Shown: piece after piece, positions 4,372-28,622 of the stretch
Position numbering within the stretch: the stretch's first letter is position 1
How the letters are laid out: every line of letters starts with the position of its first letter
Source of the DNA: a virus
IMG/VR virus record: IMGVR_UViG_3300045999_001311
Span: 1-30,251 of that record
Length of the DNA stretch: 30,251 nucleotides
Direction: 5' to 3' (one strand)
Notes under the pieces: generated by a model
What the model was told of the DNA's origin: nothing
The model's input: the letters and a program-made list of their open reading frames with translations, nothing else
Databases searched by the model: none
Made by a program: the position numbers and the translations under genes

Positions 4372-4507
4372 CGTGTTTTCTTTTCACTTGTTTATAAATC
4401 TTTTTTATACTTGACGTATATTCGTGTTTTCCTTTTGCTATGTCGACAATCTCACTTACATTAAAGAAATCATCGGTTTTTAAAAGTTCTAATATCTGTG
4501 CTATCAT
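4349..4507 (-). CDS. Small basic protein between tail protein and tape measure
   Basis: A 52-residue protein starting MIAQILELLKTDDFFNVSEI and ending in a basic tail (KQVKRKHDGRKKNN). Its ATG overlaps the stop of the 775-residue tail gene as ATGA (4504-4507), and its end runs 23 bases into the tape measure start. Both overlaps are strong signs of real, coupled translation. The slot directly before the tape measure is where tail assembly chaperones usually lie, so a short chaperone-like role is possible. No family is recognised. The N-terminal half looks helical. Confidence 0.65.
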   Translation of the reverse strand: MIAQILELLKTDDFFNVSEIVDIAKGKHEYTSSIKKIYKQVKRKHDGRKKNN

Positions 4508-6831
4508 TGTTGGTTAATTATTATTTGATTACTTGACTGGCTACCGTCACTAAATGTATATGTTACTAATAACGTTATAACTTGACTTGAGCTATTTTCA
4601 GTAATGAAGTTTTGTAAAACCTCACTTATTAAAAAGTCACTATTTTCCGCTAATATAAAACTTGGCGTGTTTGGGTTTGCTGGAATACAAACTTCGATCG
4701 ATTGACTTGTTGTAATTGTGCTTGGCGTTATAGTTACTCCAGCCGTTGCCGTTGTTATCGTTGCACTTACTGCTCCGTTTGGCATCTGAACACGAACGTC
4801 TAAACATTGTGAGTTAGGGTCGGGGTTAATAATATCCTGAGCTTGTAACGGTCGGAAGTCTAAATATAAACTAAATTCTACTTCACCATTTGTTAGGTTA
4901 CTTTTCATCTCGTTTATAATATACCTTTTGTCTCGTATTATAAGCCTGTCGTTCAATCTAAGGTTAGTTAAAAGGCTAATTGGTAAAATAGTCTTTACGG
5001 TAACTAAACGCTGCTTTAAATCGAATAAATTACTTAGGTAAGGAAAATAATAAGTAGCGTATAAACCTTGTTGGATTGTTTCATTGTGAATAATTGAGTT
5101 GTCTGCTCCAAAATTTAAACTATATTTCGTGTTTTGATAGGTTAAGTCCTGACCAAATAAAGCGTAAGTGTCAATATCTTGGTGAGTTGAACCGTCGTAA
5201 AATTTAATATCGTGAACTAAATTATCGCTTTCACCATACAAATAAAACAAACATGGCTTTGGCGTGTAAGCTTGTATGTTTTCATTAAGTGCAAATCCAA
5301 GTATTGCGTAATTATTTGAATTATCTAAGGCTCTCGTAAATAACAAATTCTCAAATGGACTTTCTATTACATAGTCGCTCCCATCGTATGGAAACTGATA
5401 TTCTAAATTACCGTACTGTTGGTTGGTTGTTTTAAAATAATCTTTATTTACGAACGATTCGCTTTCCTGATATTTAAAGATAATCTTCTTATATAACTTC
5501 ATGCGCTCCACGCCTATTTCATCCGTGTTTGTGTATTCAGTAACGTCAACTATTGCACCTTGAGAATACCAGTCATCTAAAGGCAAAACTTCGTAAACGT
5601 TTTCTTCAACACCTACGCAAGTCATGTTAAACTCTTTCAAAACACCAGCGAAGAAATCAGCAACTTTCATATCAGGCATTACGTTGTTTAAGTTTACGTT
5701 TCCTGTTACTGTTGTACTTGCGTTATTTGCTGTATATATTTCGGAGTTAGGTTGGTTTGAACCATCCAAATAATTCATTTGGTAAGTTATATACGAAGCA
5801 AATGTAAAACTTTGTAAACCTCGAACATATATTTTAATTTGGCTTTGAAGACCTGGGGTGTTAGCCGAAGTGTAAACCACATAATTATTTGCACCTGAGC
5901 CGTTAATTGTAGCGTAAAAATTATTGTTTATAAATACGTCAATATAATATTCATCTGAAACACCTCCTAATATAGTAACATTAACAATATGAGTTGCAGA
6001 GGAAGCGTTAAAAGATAAACCCCCTAAACTTGTTGTATAGTTTACATTTACTGTATCCGTTACAAAATCAAATATATTTGCTGCTGCTGCTGGATAACTT
6101 ACTATGTCTAATAATTCAGCTTCACTTACCCACGTGTATTCATTCGTGTTTTTGCCCCATAAAAAAGCTTGGTTAAACCTCGGGTCACTTAAAAACGTAC
6201 CCTGAAAAGTAACCCCGTAATCGTTCTCGATAGCTTCGAATAGCTTACTTACTTTAATTGCTGGAAACAACTCATCGTACTGAATAGCTTTTGAAGTAGA
6301 ACAAATATTTTCAGGACCAACATTATACGTCCATTGTCGCGTACTTGCTATTAATGGGTAGCGAACATCGTAGTCAGTTGCTAAGTCCGTAATACGGTCG
6401 TAAATTTCAGTGCCATTAAATAAAAACTCTAAGCTACTTAAATCTAAGTTGTTTAGTTTATCCTCTCCAAACTTGTCTTTTAAAGCTAACACGTCACCAT
6501 AAAAAGTAACCGTGTAACTATCAACGTGACCGTTCTTTACGTTTGACTTTTCTAACTGTATTTTACCACGTCTAAAAAAAGTAAGGTCTATTTCTATAAA
6601 AGCATTACGCCTTAAGTTTTGGTCTATTGTTTGCTCAAGGTCGGACTCATAAAAATATTGAAAGATGTTATTATTATGAGGTGAAGCCGGAACGGTGAAA
6701 CTTTGCGAAAAGTCGGTAAACACTTTTGAAATATCCGAAATATTTTGAACGCTGGAATTTACACTTATTTGTTCATCGTTGAATAACTCTACTTGAACAC
6801 CCTCTACAAATAAACCTACTATACGTTTCAT
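4504..6831 (-). CDS. Large tail / baseplate protein
   Basis: A 775-residue protein, predicted mostly beta, with a conserved-looking N-terminus (VQVELFNDEQISVNSSVQNI ... DFSQSFTVPAS). The region ~625-665 (RLRDRLIIRD-like: RLNDRLIIRDKRYIINEMKS) resembles hub or distal-tail domains of Bacteroidota phages, where proteins like this lie beside the tape measure. The last ~120 residues are Thr/Ser-rich and look like an Ig-like or exposed beta domain. It overlaps the preceding tail gene by four bases. Most likely a baseplate or tail-tip component; the exact part cannot be told from sequence alone. Confidence 0.65.
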   Translation of the reverse strand: MKRIVGLFVEGVQVELFNDEQISVNSSVQNISDISKVFTDFSQSFTVPASPHNNNIFQYFYESDLEQTIDQNLRRNAFIEIDLTFFRRGKIQLEKSNVKNGHVDSYTVTFYGDVLALKDKFGEDKLNNLDLSSLEFLFNGTEIYDRITDLATDYDVRYPLIASTRQWTYNVGPENICSTSKAIQYDELFPAIKVSKLFEAIENDYGVTFQGTFLSDPRFNQAFLWGKNTNEYTWVSEAELLDIVSYPAAAANIFDFVTDTVNVNYTTSLGGLSFNASSATHIVNVTILGGVSDEYYIDVFINNNFYATINGSGANNYVVYTSANTPGLQSQIKIYVRGLQSFTFASYITYQMNYLDGSNQPNSEIYTANNASTTVTGNVNLNNVMPDMKVADFFAGVLKEFNMTCVGVEENVYEVLPLDDWYSQGAIVDVTEYTNTDEIGVERMKLYKKIIFKYQESESFVNKDYFKTTNQQYGNLEYQFPYDGSDYVIESPFENLLFTRALDNSNNYAILGFALNENIQAYTPKPCLFYLYGESDNLVHDIKFYDGSTHQDIDTYALFGQDLTYQNTKYSLNFGADNSIIHNETIQQGLYATYYFPYLSNLFDLKQRLVTVKTILPISLLTNLRLNDRLIIRDKRYIINEMKSNLTNGEVEFSLYLDFRPLQAQDIINPDPNSQCLDVRVQMPNGAVSATITTATAGVTITPSTITTSQSIEVCIPANPNTPSFILAENSDFLISEVLQNFITENSSSQVITLLVTYTFSDGSQSSNQIIINQQ

Positions 6832-12658: not shown

Positions 12659-13201
12659 TTATTTTATTAATTCGTAATCCTCGTTTTTGTAGTCCTCATA
12701 ATGTTCTCCTACTTCTATTTTTAAACTATCCTTGCAGTATTTTAACGTTTGCCATACTGACTTAAAACTTATTCCAGTACATTTTTGTATTTGGCGTGTA
12801 CTCATTCCGGTATCTCGGTAAAGTTCATATAGTAATTTATCATACCAATGCCAACTGTTTACTGTTTCGTTTATTTTTACTTCTAATTGCTTTTGAGCGT
12901 TCGTTTTTTCGTATGGGCTACTTTCATCAACTAACTGAATTGCTTCCGTTATATCGACTTTTTGAAGCCTTTGTTTAGATTTTTCAAAGTCGTAGTACAT
13001 ATTTCTTAAAACAATCCATACAAACCCCTTGTAAATAGTTCCGTTGCGGTAAAATCTTTCTTTGTTTTCGTGTTTTGCTAACTTTAAGTACATTTCCTGA
13101 ACTATATCTTCAGCTAAATAATACTCTCCAAACGAGCGCACAACTTTAATCCAGTGTTTATGGTCTGCGTAAAGGTCATTTAAAAATTGATTAGTCTGCA
13201 A
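12659..13201 (-). CDS. Sigma-70-like RNA polymerase factor
   Basis: A 180-residue protein with the layout of a small sigma factor. The region-2-like part is at ~10-80 (YLAEDIVQEMYLKLAKHEN at 28-46, then FVWIVLRNMYYDFEKSKQR). The region-4-like helix-turn-helix is at ~131-162 (TGMSTRQIQKCTGISFKSVWQ). It would direct host RNA polymerase to phage promoters, plausibly late ones. The only start is a TTG at 13201, overlapping the membrane-protein gene by 11 bases; the next ATG would remove region 2. An alternative is a packaging-associated DNA-binding protein that borrowed the fold. Confidence 0.75.
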   Translation of the reverse strand: MQTNQFLNDLYADHKHWIKVVRSFGEYYLAEDIVQEMYLKLAKHENKERFYRNGTIYKGFVWIVLRNMYYDFEKSKQRLQKVDITEAIQLVDESSPYEKTNAQKQLEVKINETVNSWHWYDKLLYELYRDTGMSTRQIQKCTGISFKSVWQTLKYCKDSLKIEVGEHYEDYKNEDYELIK

Positions 13202-17948: not shown

Positions 17949-18920
17949 TCAAAACGGAACATCTTTATTATTCATTTTTTCTGAAAACGATCGTATTTCT
18001 TTTCCGTTTACTATATCAGGTTCAATCAAAGGTAGTTGTTTAGCTGGAAAACTATTTGACATTTTAGGTCTTACGTTTTGTAATGGGTCAACTCCATTAA
18101 CTTTAAATCCTAACCCCGAATTAAAATCAAACATAATAGGGTCATTTAATGCTGTGTGTTTACCACCCGTATCCATATCTTTGACTTTCTCAACATTTAC
18201 CCACGTTACATATTTCATTGTTTCGTGTTTTACTAACCTATGAATAACAAATAAGTCATCACAACGATTTGAAAATGCTTTACCACCTTCGATATGGTCT
18301 TTCAATGGTGCTTTTAAATGTCCTTTATATTCGCCTTCCTGATAAACGTTACCACTTCTACCGCTTTCGCTGTTTGGATGCGTGTTTATGTATATCGTTA
18401 CTCCAAACTTATTGCAGAAATCACGACAAGTATTTAAGAAATTGTAATTGCTTTGAAAATCCATTTGCCTATCTAATCCAGTAAATGGGTCAATTAAGGC
18501 TACGTTGCATTCGCTTTCTTCAAATAACTTCAATAACTCATTTGGCTTGTAAAGATTTTTATTACTTATAAATTTAAACTGTTGTTCAAGTATTGTTGTT
18601 CCTGTTGTTATTTGTTGGTAGGTTAAATCTTTAAATCTTATTCCATAATACATTTGAAGCAAGTCACGTAATATTGTAGCTTTCTTATTTTCACCACTCC
18701 AAATGCAAAACTTTAAATCGTGTTTAAGTGCAAGTGTTAAGAAATACCAATTTATCCAATAGGTCTTACCAACGTTATCGTGTCCGAGAATTATGTTTAG
18801 TTGGTTAGGTTTAAATCTAATGTATTCATCTAAATTGCAACCTATCATTAATCCGTCTTTTATTTTGCCGTCTTTGTAGTCAAGTAAATATTGTAGGCAA
18901 TCGCCTTCTTGTGTTATCAT
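17949..18920 (-). CDS. RecA-fold replicative ATPase (DnaB/RepA-like)
   Basis: A 323-residue ATPase. Walker A is GHDNVGKT (46-53), Walker B is VALIDPFTG (Asp144), and a further motif follows at TIYINTHPNSESGRSG. A loop-type segment (HIEGGKAFSNRCDDLFVIHR) resembles RepA/DnaB-like AAA_25 proteins. It would act as replicative helicase or loader. It lacks the N-terminal DnaB domain and is shorter than full DnaB (~450 residues), so it fits RepA-like enzymes. It pairs with the DUF6291 initiator-like gene, overlapping it by four bases. Confidence 0.8.
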   Translation of the reverse strand: MITQEGDCLQYLLDYKDGKIKDGLMIGCNLDEYIRFKPNQLNIILGHDNVGKTYWINWYFLTLALKHDLKFCIWSGENKKATILRDLLQMYYGIRFKDLTYQQITTGTTILEQQFKFISNKNLYKPNELLKLFEESECNVALIDPFTGLDRQMDFQSNYNFLNTCRDFCNKFGVTIYINTHPNSESGRSGNVYQEGEYKGHLKAPLKDHIEGGKAFSNRCDDLFVIHRLVKHETMKYVTWVNVEKVKDMDTGGKHTALNDPIMFDFNSGLGFKVNGVDPLQNVRPKMSNSFPAKQLPLIEPDIVNGKEIRSFSEKMNNKDVPF

Positions 18921-19510
18921 TGTTTAGGTTTTAGGAATCCGAGTTTAATTGCTTTCAGTTCTTCAGGTGAAATACCTTCTTTTTGATATTGTTTAGGGTT
19001 TCTGCTTAACCAAGTTCGTAACCTTTGAGATATACCGAATGTTTTTTCTTTTTCAAATCTAAGTTTTTTATCATTCTCTCCGTGTTCCGTCCAATAGAAA
19101 TAAAAGTCGTTTAGCATATCCCTACCATACTCATCTAAAAAAGGTTTAAGCGCATCAGCAAATTTTAATTTGCGTTCTTCTATATTCTCATTCTTATTTA
19201 CATTAACATTTACATTTACATTGTTATTAGCTTCTACTTTGCTTTCTTTTTGCTTATCTTTTGCTTCTATTTTGCTTTCACTTTGTTTTGTTTTTGGTTT
19301 TTTACCATTCTCGAACCGCTTAATATTTGCGTCAAGCTGTGGTTTAATTAAAGTAAACATTGCTTTGGCTACATTATCTGTAAATTCAGGTTCTGTAAAG
19401 TCAAGCGCATATTTAAAAATAGCGTCATAAACTTCAGCTTTAATAACTGGCGACATACCTTCAACGCTTTCGTAAAAGCTTCGGTAAAATATCATTGAAT
19501 CACGTTTCAT
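18917..19510 (-). CDS. DUF6291 replication-initiator-like protein
   Basis: A 197-residue protein. The N-terminal part (MKRDSMIFYRSFYESVEGMS ... AIFKYALDF ... AKAMFTLIKPQLDAN) is the DUF6291 signature. A low-complexity linker follows (residues ~85-115: KQSESKIEAKDKQKESK, then alternating Asn/Val). The C-terminal part (FADALKPFLDEYGRDMLNDF..YW) is DnaD/initiator-like. It probably binds origin DNA and loads the ATPase that follows. The start at 19510 is chosen over an upstream ATG (19555) because MKRDS is the family start and the leader lies upstream. The linker DNA has short ACATTT-type repeats. Confidence 0.75.
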   Translation of the reverse strand: MKRDSMIFYRSFYESVEGMSPVIKAEVYDAIFKYALDFTEPEFTDNVAKAMFTLIKPQLDANIKRFENGKKPKTKQSESKIEAKDKQKESKVEANNNVNVNVNVNKNENIEERKLKFADALKPFLDEYGRDMLNDFYFYWTEHGENDKKLRFEKEKTFGISQRLRTWLSRNPKQYQKEGISPEELKAIKLGFLKPKQ

Positions 19511-19523
19511 TTGTTGTTGTATT

Positions 19524-19632
19524 AAAATAAAAAAACCCCTTGAAATCCTGTGCATCCTACCTCACATTCATTCAAAGGGTCAATAATACCTTTACGAGTT
19601 TATAATGTAGGATGAACTCGAATACAAATATA
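19524..19632 (-). ncRNA. Structured leader RNA, copy 2 (kissing-loop element)
   Basis: Read on the minus strand: a TATATTTG box (19625-19632) right after the nuclease stop, then hairpin P1 CGAGTT/AACTCG (19615-19620 with 19595-19600) with a 14-base loop CATCCTACATTATA. Terminator stem ACCCTTTGAA/TTCAAGGGGT (19571-19580 with 19535-19544) follows and ends in a T run. Inside it lies hairpin TGTG/CACA (19563-19566, 19549-19552) whose loop GTAGGATG (19553-19560) pairs perfectly with CATCCTAC (19607-19614) in the P1 loop. The same plan, with different bases, occurs in copy 1. No TTTG lies at the right place for -33, so the promoter may be weaker than in copy 1. Confidence 0.75.
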
Positions 19633-20082
19633 TTAATTATTTTCTAATATTAATTTTTTTATGCAAAATTTATCAGCTGTTAATTTGTCTATTAAAAAAC
19701 CTTTACTTGTTGCCGTTGCAACTTCCTTTAATTTGTGTGAATTGTACATTAATTTTAAATGCTGTTTTGAAAATATAAATATTTCAGTATAGTCACCAAT
19801 TAAATAAAGCCAAGTGTTATCGTTTCTAAATATACCTGAACTAACAAAATTAAAATTATTAGCATTGCTTTTTTCAGCTATTTCAATATATAAATTTCCA
19901 GTTTCTTTATATTTATCATCAAACTTAATTTCAAAACCTTGTTTGTTTTCACCTTTTATGTTTTGATATTTTATTGAACTATAACTACTCAGACAAATTC
20001 CTATTTCCTTAAGTAATATATCTGTAACAAAGTCTTGAAACTCCAAGCCTTTTTCTAACATTTTTTTATAATATTCTGTCAT
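19633..20082 (-). CDS. Possible PD-(D/E)XK-type nuclease paired with methyltransferase
   Basis: A 149-residue protein. GLEFQDFVTDILL (residues 12-24) is a typical first helix of restriction-like nucleases. It is followed by GENKQGFEIKFDDKYKETGN (residues 45-64) and LYIEIAEKSNAN, two beta strands carrying acidic and Lys residues at the places expected for a PD-(D/E)XK site. The exact catalytic set is not clear, so this is a hypothesis. I recall this pattern as an unnamed protein of Bacteroidota phages. It follows the methyltransferase by two bases, suggesting a modification/cleavage pair. Rich in A/T compared with the replication genes. Confidence 0.5.
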   Translation of the reverse strand: MTEYYKKMLEKGLEFQDFVTDILLKEIGICLSSYSSIKYQNIKGENKQGFEIKFDDKYKETGNLYIEIAEKSNANNFNFVSSGIFRNDNTWLYLIGDYTEIFIFSKQHLKLMYNSHKLKEVATATSKGFLIDKLTADKFCIKKLILENN

Positions 20083-20084
20083 AA

Positions 20085-21233
20085 CTATATTTCATTGCCC
20101 CATCCATACCATTTATCCTTTTTTATGTTTCTGCAAAACATTTCTAATTTATTTCCGTAATTATAAATATCATCTATAATATTTAAAAATTCAATTGGTT
20201 TTTCACTGTGGTTATCATTTCGTTCAATTGTTTGAACACTGTCATAAAGTTTTTTATTATCAGGAACACAACTTCCTTTAGTAGCTATTAATAAAAATTC
20301 GTGTCTTACTGAATTATAATGCCCCATGTTATGTTTAACTTTATCCCAAACAAAAGAAGTTTTATATTTAAAACCCCAACTTTTAATAACCGTAAAAGCA
20401 TCTTCAAGTAATGGTGAAGTTACCCAAAGAAATAAAACACTATCTTTTTCAGATATTTTATTTACGGGCAAACTACAAATTTCATTTACTGTCATAGTAT
20501 TATAATGTTTAGAAGCCCCACCTAATTGTGGCGTATCTTGTTTGTCATTATAACTCCAAGCTGGATCAGCATAAATAACTCTAAATTTATTTGTAGTATT
20601 AAAAATGTCAATTTTAAATTCGTTGTTTGTTACCGTTTCAATTCTTTGTTCATATTCTTTTTTCTTTTCAATATGAATTTCTTTCTTTTCTTCTTTCTTT
20701 ATTTCTTGATAAGCTTGGTTTATACTTATTTCGCCAGTGCTTAATTGTGCTTTTACTTCAGGTGTTGCAACGGCTTCTATTTTCTTAACCTTTGCTATTG
20801 TATCGTGTGAAACGTTAGCAACTTTTGATATTTCTTTTATAGTGTTTATTGGTTCTATATTCGACTTTTCAGATTTATGAAAAGTGGTTTTTCTTTCCGT
20901 TTCTTTTTCCTTTGCTCTTTCACTAAATACACTTTCTAACTGTAACGCCAAAACGCTTCTTTGGTAGTTGCTTAAATTTCTTCTACCAAATTGGTTGTTT
21001 ATCATCCATTCCTTAACATCGTTTTCGTTTTTAAAATATTTACTTTCAGTTTGGTAGTCTAAGTTCCAACGCGTAGCTATTTCATAACGGTTGTGTCCAT
21101 CAATAATAAACCCGTTCCAAGTTATTATTTTTTCCCTAATTCCTTCATCTAAACAATTTTGTTCAAGTTGCTTAAATTCTTCAGCTGTTAACGCTGGTAT
21201 TAACTTCTTAAATTCTTCTTTAATTTCTAACAT
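20085..21233 (-). CDS. ParB-like / MT-A70 DNA adenine methyltransferase
   Basis: A 382-residue fusion. Residues 1-85 are ParB/Srx-like (IIDGHNRYEIATRW at 43-56), and residues ~130-160 hold a helix-turn-helix (ISKVANVSHDTIAKVKKI). A charged linker follows. Residues ~215-380 are an MT-A70 adenine methyltransferase: the catalytic DPAW (223-226, DPPW-type), VTSPLLEDAF, a CxxxxD-type core and NDNHSEKP. It would methylate adenine in DNA, perhaps to mask phage DNA from host restriction or to mark it for the nuclease that follows. It has its own structured leader. Confidence 0.82.
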   Translation of the reverse strand: MLEIKEEFKKLIPALTAEEFKQLEQNCLDEGIREKIITWNGFIIDGHNRYEIATRWNLDYQTESKYFKNENDVKEWMINNQFGRRNLSNYQRSVLALQLESVFSERAKEKETERKTTFHKSEKSNIEPINTIKEISKVANVSHDTIAKVKKIEAVATPEVKAQLSTGEISINQAYQEIKKEEKKEIHIEKKKEYEQRIETVTNNEFKIDIFNTTNKFRVIYADPAWSYNDKQDTPQLGGASKHYNTMTVNEICSLPVNKISEKDSVLFLWVTSPLLEDAFTVIKSWGFKYKTSFVWDKVKHNMGHYNSVRHEFLLIATKGSCVPDNKKLYDSVQTIERNDNHSEKPIEFLNIIDDIYNYGNKLEMFCRNIKKDKWYGWGNEI

Positions 21234-21245
21234 ACATTTTTGTTT

Positions 21246-21376
21246 AAATAAAAAACCCCTTAACTCCTTTGGGTCTTCACGTCCAAATTCATTAAAGGGT
21301 CTTAATAACTTCTTTAAGTTCTATAATGTGAAGACGAACCGTTAACAAATATACTAATTATTCAGTCAAACTCAAA
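21246..21376 (-). ncRNA. Structured leader RNA, copy 1 (kissing-loop element) with promoter
   Basis: Read on the minus strand: -33 TTTG (21373-21376), 19-base spacer, -7 TATATTTG (21346-21353). Then hairpin P1 GGTTC/GAACT (21336-21340 with 21317-21321) with the 14-base loop GTCTTCACATTATA. Terminator stem ACCCTTTAA/TTAAGGGGT (21292-21300 with 21255-21263) follows, with T run TTTTTTATTT. Inside it lies hairpin TTTGG/CCAAA (21283-21287, 21268-21272) whose loop GTGAAGAC (21273-21280) pairs perfectly with GTCTTCAC of P1 (21328-21335). The T run ends 12 bases before the methyltransferase ATG. Confidence 0.78.
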
Positions 21377-22629: not shown

Positions 22630-22655
22630 AAAAAACCCCTACCGAAGTAAGGGTT
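22630..22655 (-). terminator. Terminator of the lysis genes
   Basis: On the minus strand AACCCTTAC and GTAGGGGTT pair (one G-T) around a TTCG loop, followed by six T. A very stable UUCG-capped intrinsic terminator, 42 bases after the last lysis-region gene and just before the early control region. Confidence 0.88.
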
Positions 22656-22688
22656 CATTAACAATTAAAATTATGAAATTATGCGCTA

Positions 22689-28593: not shown

Positions 28594-28622
28594 AAAAAAG
28601 GGAAGGCATTTTACCTCCCCTT
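28594..28622 (-). terminator. Terminator after the major capsid gene
   Basis: On the minus strand AAGGGGAGG and CCTTCCCTT pair (one G-T) around a 7-base loop, followed by six T. It lies 19 bases after the capsid stop codon and 25 bases before the next ATG, so it probably lowers transcription of genes beyond the capsid gene. Confidence 0.82.

Follow-up and report, generated by a model that had tools for sequence, protein, structure and literature searches.

The window, one IMG/VR virus record with a length of 30,251 bases, carries on its minus strand portal and tail genes, lysis genes and small open reading frames (ORFs), followed by a first copy of a leader-like RNA element, a ParB-MT-A70 methyltransferase gene, an ORF of 149 aa and a second copy of the element. 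After copy 2, the order continues with genes for a DUF6291 protein, a primase/helicase-like protein, NinG, Erf, an exonuclease, the terminase, a tape measure protein and a protease. The gene after copy 1 (20085 to 21233, minus strand) encodes a 382-aa product with a ParB-like N-terminal part and an MT-A70 DNA methyltransferase part (Pfam MT-A70, 1.3e-23), and its PHROG matches are DNA methyltransferase and ParB-like. Copy 2 is followed by the DUF6291 gene (18917 to 19510, minus strand; Pfam DUF6291, 1e-18), a relative of which in the cultured flavophage elemoA, found with a related DUF6291-type query from a different contig, is annotated as a "replication protein" and has a primase/helicase after it. 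Beyond the DUF6291 gene of the window lies the gene for the primase/helicase-like replication protein (17949 to 18920, minus strand; PHROG DNA primase/helicase, 4.7e-21). The closest cultured relatives of the portal protein (35% identity) and of a 775-aa protein (4504 to 6831; 28%) are those of Nonlabens phages P12024S/L; because these phages are the nearest cultured relatives, the host of the virus is probably a member of the Flavobacteriia. A weak sigma-factor-like match (PHROG 1740, 6.5e-6) at 12659 to 13201 (minus strand) marks a possible phage transcription factor, and an ordinary intrinsic-terminator-like hairpin lies at 22633 to 22656 (minus strand), where the lysis genes give way to the early small ORFs.

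Two leader elements with a loop-loop helix

A first-pass annotation had placed two leader RNAs with a common plan at 21246 to 21353 (copy 1) and 19524 to 19632 (copy 2) on the minus strand, and both the positions and the plan were borne out from the sequence. The 5' half of each copy consists of the -7 box TATATTTG, a hairpin (P1) whose 14-nt loop comprises an 8-nt kissing strand (K5) and the segment ATTATA, and a linker (J12). The 3' half comprises the 5' strand of a terminator stem (P2), a short internal segment, an inner hairpin (P3) with a 10-nt loop made of 2 nt and a second 8-nt kissing strand (K3), the trinucleotide GGA, the 3' strand of P2 and a U-tract.

In copy 1, the Bacteroidota-type -7 promoter box (21346 to 21353) is followed by the P1 strands GGTTC (21336 to 21340) and GAACT (21317 to 21321), which enclose K5, GTCTTCAC (21328 to 21335), and the ATTATA segment (21322 to 21327), which is near-invariant in the alignment of homologues described below (A2). 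J12 (21300 to 21316) begins with purine-rich AAAGR and continues with TTATT. The terminator stem is formed by CCCTTTAA (21292 to 21299) and TTAAGGGG (21256 to 21263); within it, the P3 strands TTTGG (21283 to 21287) and CCAAA (21268 to 21272) present K3, GTGAAGAC (21273 to 21280), after the dinucleotide AC, and the U-tract TTTTTT (21250 to 21255) follows the stem. Copy 2 repeats this order with the same -7 box, TATATTTG (19625 to 19632), P1 strands CGAGTT (19615 to 19620) and AACTCG (19595 to 19600), K5 CATCCTAC (19607 to 19614), ATTATA (19601 to 19606), P2 strands CCCTTTGAA (19571 to 19579) and TTCAAGGGG (19536 to 19544), P3 strands TGTG (19563 to 19566) and CACA (19549 to 19552), K3 GTAGGATG (19553 to 19560) and the U-tract TTTTTTT (19529 to 19535). 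All of these features lie on the minus strand. Boxes, linker and U-tracts were read from the sequence, to which covariation was added for the kissing strands and folding for the stems; the stems of copy 1 were further assigned from the consensus, P1 of both copies also from covariation, P2 of copy 2 from the covariance model and ATTATA of copy 2 from A2.

The claim of a perfect 8-bp pairing between the two loops, made of different bases in each copy, also held: K is GTCTTCAC/GTGAAGAC in copy 1 and CATCCTAC/GTAGGATG in copy 2. By simple counting, loops of 14 nt and 10 nt would contain a perfect 8-bp match by chance with odds of about 3e-4 per copy. Minimum-free-energy folds computed without pseudoknots recovered P1 in both copies, as well as the terminator stem and the inner hairpin it encloses, with z about -2.2 each. 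Both terminator stems have four G on the 3' side, followed by six to seven U. A simple terminator scan flagged neither site, its loop limit of 8 nt excluding both. No third copy was found in the window with a covariance model and a promoter/kissing scan; a weak third match at 28604 to 28516 (E 0.27) was rejected, having a broken P1 pair and failing the promoter/kissing scan.

Searches with Rfam 15 gave no match in the window at the gathering score, nor any at E<=5 around both copies. The literature searched, which lay outside subscription journals and preprints, held nothing matching on the element or on flavophage transcriptomes, so that the statement that no described family matches stands for Rfam 15 and that literature.

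Homologues, covariation and genomic setting

A first exact pattern, built from bases common to both window copies with K left unused, yielded about 35 more copies in viral contigs, and two further patterns widened this set, termed type I, to 85 distinct cores, among which K5 takes 32 different sequences; they occur in over 100 gene contexts on IMG/VR phage contigs. Alignment of 46 type I sequences with MAFFT (A2) gave an RNAalifold consensus, in which the kissing helix cannot be modelled, that contained P1, P2 and P3; 19 of its 20 pairs showed double changes. Once K was included, 91.5% of the cells were paired, and 331 cells had changed on both sides, compared to 108.7 +/- 9.2 in 500 shuffles and 40 to 65 with slid partners. 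K itself comprised 8 bp that were 99.2% paired without any G-U, with double changes in six of the eight pairs and the other two invariant. The terminator stem frequently contains G-U pairs, unlike the strictly Watson-Crick K. Thus, the original proposal of an RNA-level structure with four covarying helices is strongly supported, since covariation was seen across the 46 homologues in every one of P1, P2, P3 and K, and K was kept in further homologues recovered with a covariance model. It is these homologues, beyond the two window copies, that provide the decisive structural evidence.

Both A2 and the homologue screen had been chosen by exact kissing and were biased by construction; therefore, the claim for K rests on tests that were blind to kissing. 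When sequences were selected by the promoter box, an ATTATA-like segment and the terminator only, at least seven of the eight K positions matched in 74 of 77, the remaining three being unrelated sequences. A covariance model without K (R1) was run on loci that had been fetched for another motif; all 11 strong matches (at least 55 bits, the next at 28) had an 8-bp kissing match, compared to only 10 of the 110 cross-pairings among these copies reaching at least 7. Among 211 deduplicated candidates defined by promoter, P1 and terminator, 87 showed a match of at least 7 bp between their own loops versus 4.7 per round with shuffled partners.

The homologues used have a GC-rich terminator stem followed by five to seven U, with a mean terminator hairpin energy of -17.5 kcal/mol, and share the conserved unpaired motifs ATTATA, AAAGR, TGAA and GGA. 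J12 mostly measures 12 to 14 nt, counted to where pairing of the folded terminator begins. A leader peptide starting from the conserved ATGAA was considered and rejected, because the ATG is missing from some copies in A2. The -7 box TAnnTTTG is present in nearly all homologues. The three copies without it are L023, L026 and L051, the latter two of which have TATTATAAATTGG in its place. K was nonetheless present in these three R1 matches, and, given that they lack the box, the element may also function when transcription starts at a promoter farther upstream.

K stands out from its surroundings in its GC content (55% versus 34%), and its duplex energies fall in a narrow range of -10.8 +/- 0.9 kcal/mol, compared to -7.9 +/- 2.8 kcal/mol for random duplexes of 34% GC. 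K5 lies immediately 3' of the P1 5' strand and K3 immediately 5' of the P3 3' strand, so that P1, K and P3 may stack. The distance from the end of K3 to the U-tract is 17 to 20 nt, and roughly 14 nt of RNA are held inside the polymerase; K3 should therefore be free before the 3' side of the terminator is complete. By this spacing, K could form ahead of the terminator and influence it. Two copies, L301 and L302, are identical except in K, and L339 and L378, which occupy the same locus, have a single base difference outside K and two compensated pairs that differ within it. In most other close pairs K is unchanged; thus, K is exchangeable but not generally fast-changing.

The setting of the type I elements is uniform. 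In 104 contexts, the upstream stop codon lies a median of 10 nt before the -7 box, and the terminator GGG lies a median of 29 nt (interquartile range, 26 to 30) before the start of the downstream ORF. Since the gap of roughly 20 nt between the U-tract and the start codon has no visible promoter, the downstream gene would be reached through the terminator. The genes downstream are many and unrelated, with most belonging to one replication module: a DUF6291/replisome-organiser cluster, one member of which was confirmed as Pfam DUF6291, is found among the four ORFs next downstream in about 90 of the 104 contexts (42 times as the first and 41 times as the second). Copy 1 of the window is placed ahead of a methyltransferase and not a replication gene. 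Directly upstream of type I copies there is often a gene that by eye resembles the DnaA DNA-binding domain; a Pfam search with one tested member of this cluster gave no match. On 30 records, R1 found one copy in 27, two copies in 2 and none in 1.

A second family and elements of cultured phages

A second family (type II), first met by chance in type I phages and then scanned for in viral contigs, has the motif GTAGAG-N-K3-CTCGAAAG and the same plan of a 5' hairpin connected to the terminator loop, with a sequence unrelated to type I. Among the matches listed, a kissing match of 7 to 8 bp was present in each of the 38 distinct copies that have a promoter box. In 24 aligned copies, 97.9% of the cells were paired and 109 cells showed double changes, compared to 28.8 +/- 3.8 after shuffling and 8 to 14 with slid partners. 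Type II elements stand ahead of the same replication cluster as type I or ahead of HNH endonucleases, and both types occur together on some contigs (L032, L332, L414 and L494). Type II is abundant in viral contigs (L032, L332, L353, L356 and L414-L504).

The layout was also found in cultured phages. Flavobacterium phage 11b (L529:2733) carries it with the kissing strands CGGGCAGG/CCTGCCCG and elemoA (L531:19622) with TGAGAGC/GCTCTCA, each with a clear P1 and each just upstream of the replication region, in sequences that differ from types I and II. These two share the P1 strands GTTATTA/TAATAAC and differ in their kissing strands; a third family defined by this P1 was rejected, as no further kissing member appeared in the viral scan. 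In Cellulophaga phage phi13:2 (L530:2886), the match to the terminator loop spans 9 bp, but P1 is weak. None of these three elements is annotated. Singletons with the kissing-terminator layout outside both families were seen at L284:3908, L336:802, L348, L415, L419:8256 and L007:3948, and further families of this layout are likely to exist.

Neither type was found in Flavobacteriaceae genomes by pattern search (type I, 0 of 399; type II, 0 of 120); thus, no prophage copies were found. The promoter- and terminator-filtered matches of the genome scan were, among the matches listed, due to chance, with the element absent. BLAST searches with one type I and one type II copy gave no real match in cultured phages, and type II produced only chance matches against plasmids. 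A covariance-model match in Nonlabens phage P12024S (E 0.0024) was rejected, having neither promoter box nor kissing strands.

Proposed function and comparison with known systems

The sequences show the helices, their covariation and the position of the element; from these we infer promoter activity, termination and regulation, and we propose as a reasonably probable reading that the leader RNA is a cis-acting attenuator, i.e., a regulated intrinsic terminator, that gates genes of the phage replication module. The TAnnTTTG promoter lies a few bases 5' of P1 and would start transcription; P1 would fold first and display eight bases in its loop. The emerging inner loop of the terminator would then pair with these bases through K and tie the 5' end to the terminator. 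On reaching the U-tract, the polymerase would either stop, which frees a transcript of about 95 nt, or continue into the downstream genes. We favour a sign of effect in which K assists terminator formation; relief of termination may come from a factor, of phage or host, that recognises the conserved motifs left unpaired (ATTATA, AAAGR, TGAA and GGA). The letters of K could drift because K itself need only pair. The linker AAAGG could pair with CCCTTT in many copies, and in A2 the linker motif persists where the 5' strand of the terminator has changed.

Of the three functions that had been offered at the outset, the conditional terminator fits best, in view of the near-constant short distance from the terminator to the start codon and the mostly single replication module downstream, with termination itself being predicted; and since the element recurs before this module in two unrelated RNA families, control of read-through is the simplest function. 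The second function, a stable small RNA, is possible, as the terminated transcript itself would be one. Its stronger form, in which the element is a transcription unit of its own that acts elsewhere and the downstream gene is a mere neighbour fed by leakage, agrees with the compact build of a unit that has both a promoter and a terminator, with the conserved unpaired motifs and with near-identical sequences of the CATCCTAC type preceding different genes; however, it leaves the narrow terminator-to-start distance and the recurrence at replication genes unexplained, no separate promoter is visible for the downstream genes, and we consider it rather unlikely. The put-like antiterminator, in which the folded RNA would bind the polymerase and let it pass its own and later terminators, has found no support and seems very improbable: the element does act as RNA only, begin at a promoter and lie in a phage operon, but HK022 put consists of two stem-loops of about 70 nt (PMC9378689), whereas here a terminator with its U-tract kept lies within the fold. 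We would give still less credence to a function at the DNA level, for example as a replication origin or as a protein-binding dyad. The location in the replication module and the strictly Watson-Crick K would suit such a site, but the fixed orientation from promoter through element to start codon, the one-sided U-tract and the frequent G-U pairs of the terminator stem argue for RNA.

The exchangeability of K (L301/L302 and L339/L378), its difference between copies of the same genome (the window, L040 and the L046 group) and the position ahead of replication genes would also agree with autocontrol in trans, in which the terminated RNA pairs via K5 or K3 with a leader being transcribed from the same phage, thereby setting termination, and K serves as a specificity tag for immunity or incompatibility. 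Both K strands are, however, already paired with one another within each RNA, K is unchanged in most close relatives, and genomes with two copies are too few to set their K difference apart from chance; we consider this mechanism decidedly unlikely. A broader speculation, which we regard as unlikely, is that kissing-locked terminators are a general, repeatedly evolved device of Bacteroidota phages whose exchangeable K acts as an address separating co-resident or co-infecting leaders, a form of RNA-encoded incompatibility; the repeated evolution would be read from a minimum of two families without shared sequence, together with several singletons, in which a 5' hairpin is tied to the terminator loop ahead of replication genes.

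Returning to the cis-acting attenuator, Bacteroidota phages are abundant, and almost nothing on the timing of their transcription was found in the literature searched. A conserved RNA with exact base pairs at the entrance of the replication genes offers a direct handle on flavophage gene control, and its 32 natural K variants are ready compensatory mutants and possibly orthogonal parts for engineering. A terminator loop tied to the 5' end of the RNA would be a new layout for transcription attenuation. We rate the architecture as undescribed and its kind as that of an attenuator leader; a relative may stand in the lists of a 2021 survey (PMC8040213) that reportedly presented candidate structured RNAs in human microbiomes.

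Attenuators based on intrinsic terminators comprise a promoter, a structured 5' leader, the terminator and the regulated gene, and the flavophage element likewise has its terminator between promoter box and ATG (104 contexts). It differs from them in that neither a ligand nor a leader peptide nor a competing antiterminator fold was found and in that the loops of its 5'-terminal hairpin and of its terminator hairpin pair with each other. Purine and ZTP riboswitches also control genes through terminators and contain loop-loop contacts, with two hairpins joined by a tertiary helix; the contact helix of the flavophage element, in contrast, is 8 bp long and free in sequence, with no Rfam match and no conserved ligand pocket recognised. 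In the CI RNA of satellite phage P4 and the C4 RNA of P1, a processed RNA pairs in trans with a leader and termination is Rho dependent; P4 CI RNA, like plasmid copy-control RNAs, sets termination by pairing with the nascent leader. These systems and the flavophage element share short stretches of complementarity within a phage operon leader and control of expression by termination; the strands of the flavophage element, however, pair within one RNA and around an intrinsic terminator. The ToxI RNA of type III toxin-antitoxin systems consists of tandem repeats ahead of a terminator and is linked to one toxin family, whereas the flavophage elements are single units followed by many unrelated genes. 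HK022 put is likewise a structured RNA of similar size near a phage promoter with a supposed cis effect on termination (PMC9378689); no terminator has been described within put, whereas the flavophage element is a kissing-loop fold that ends in one.
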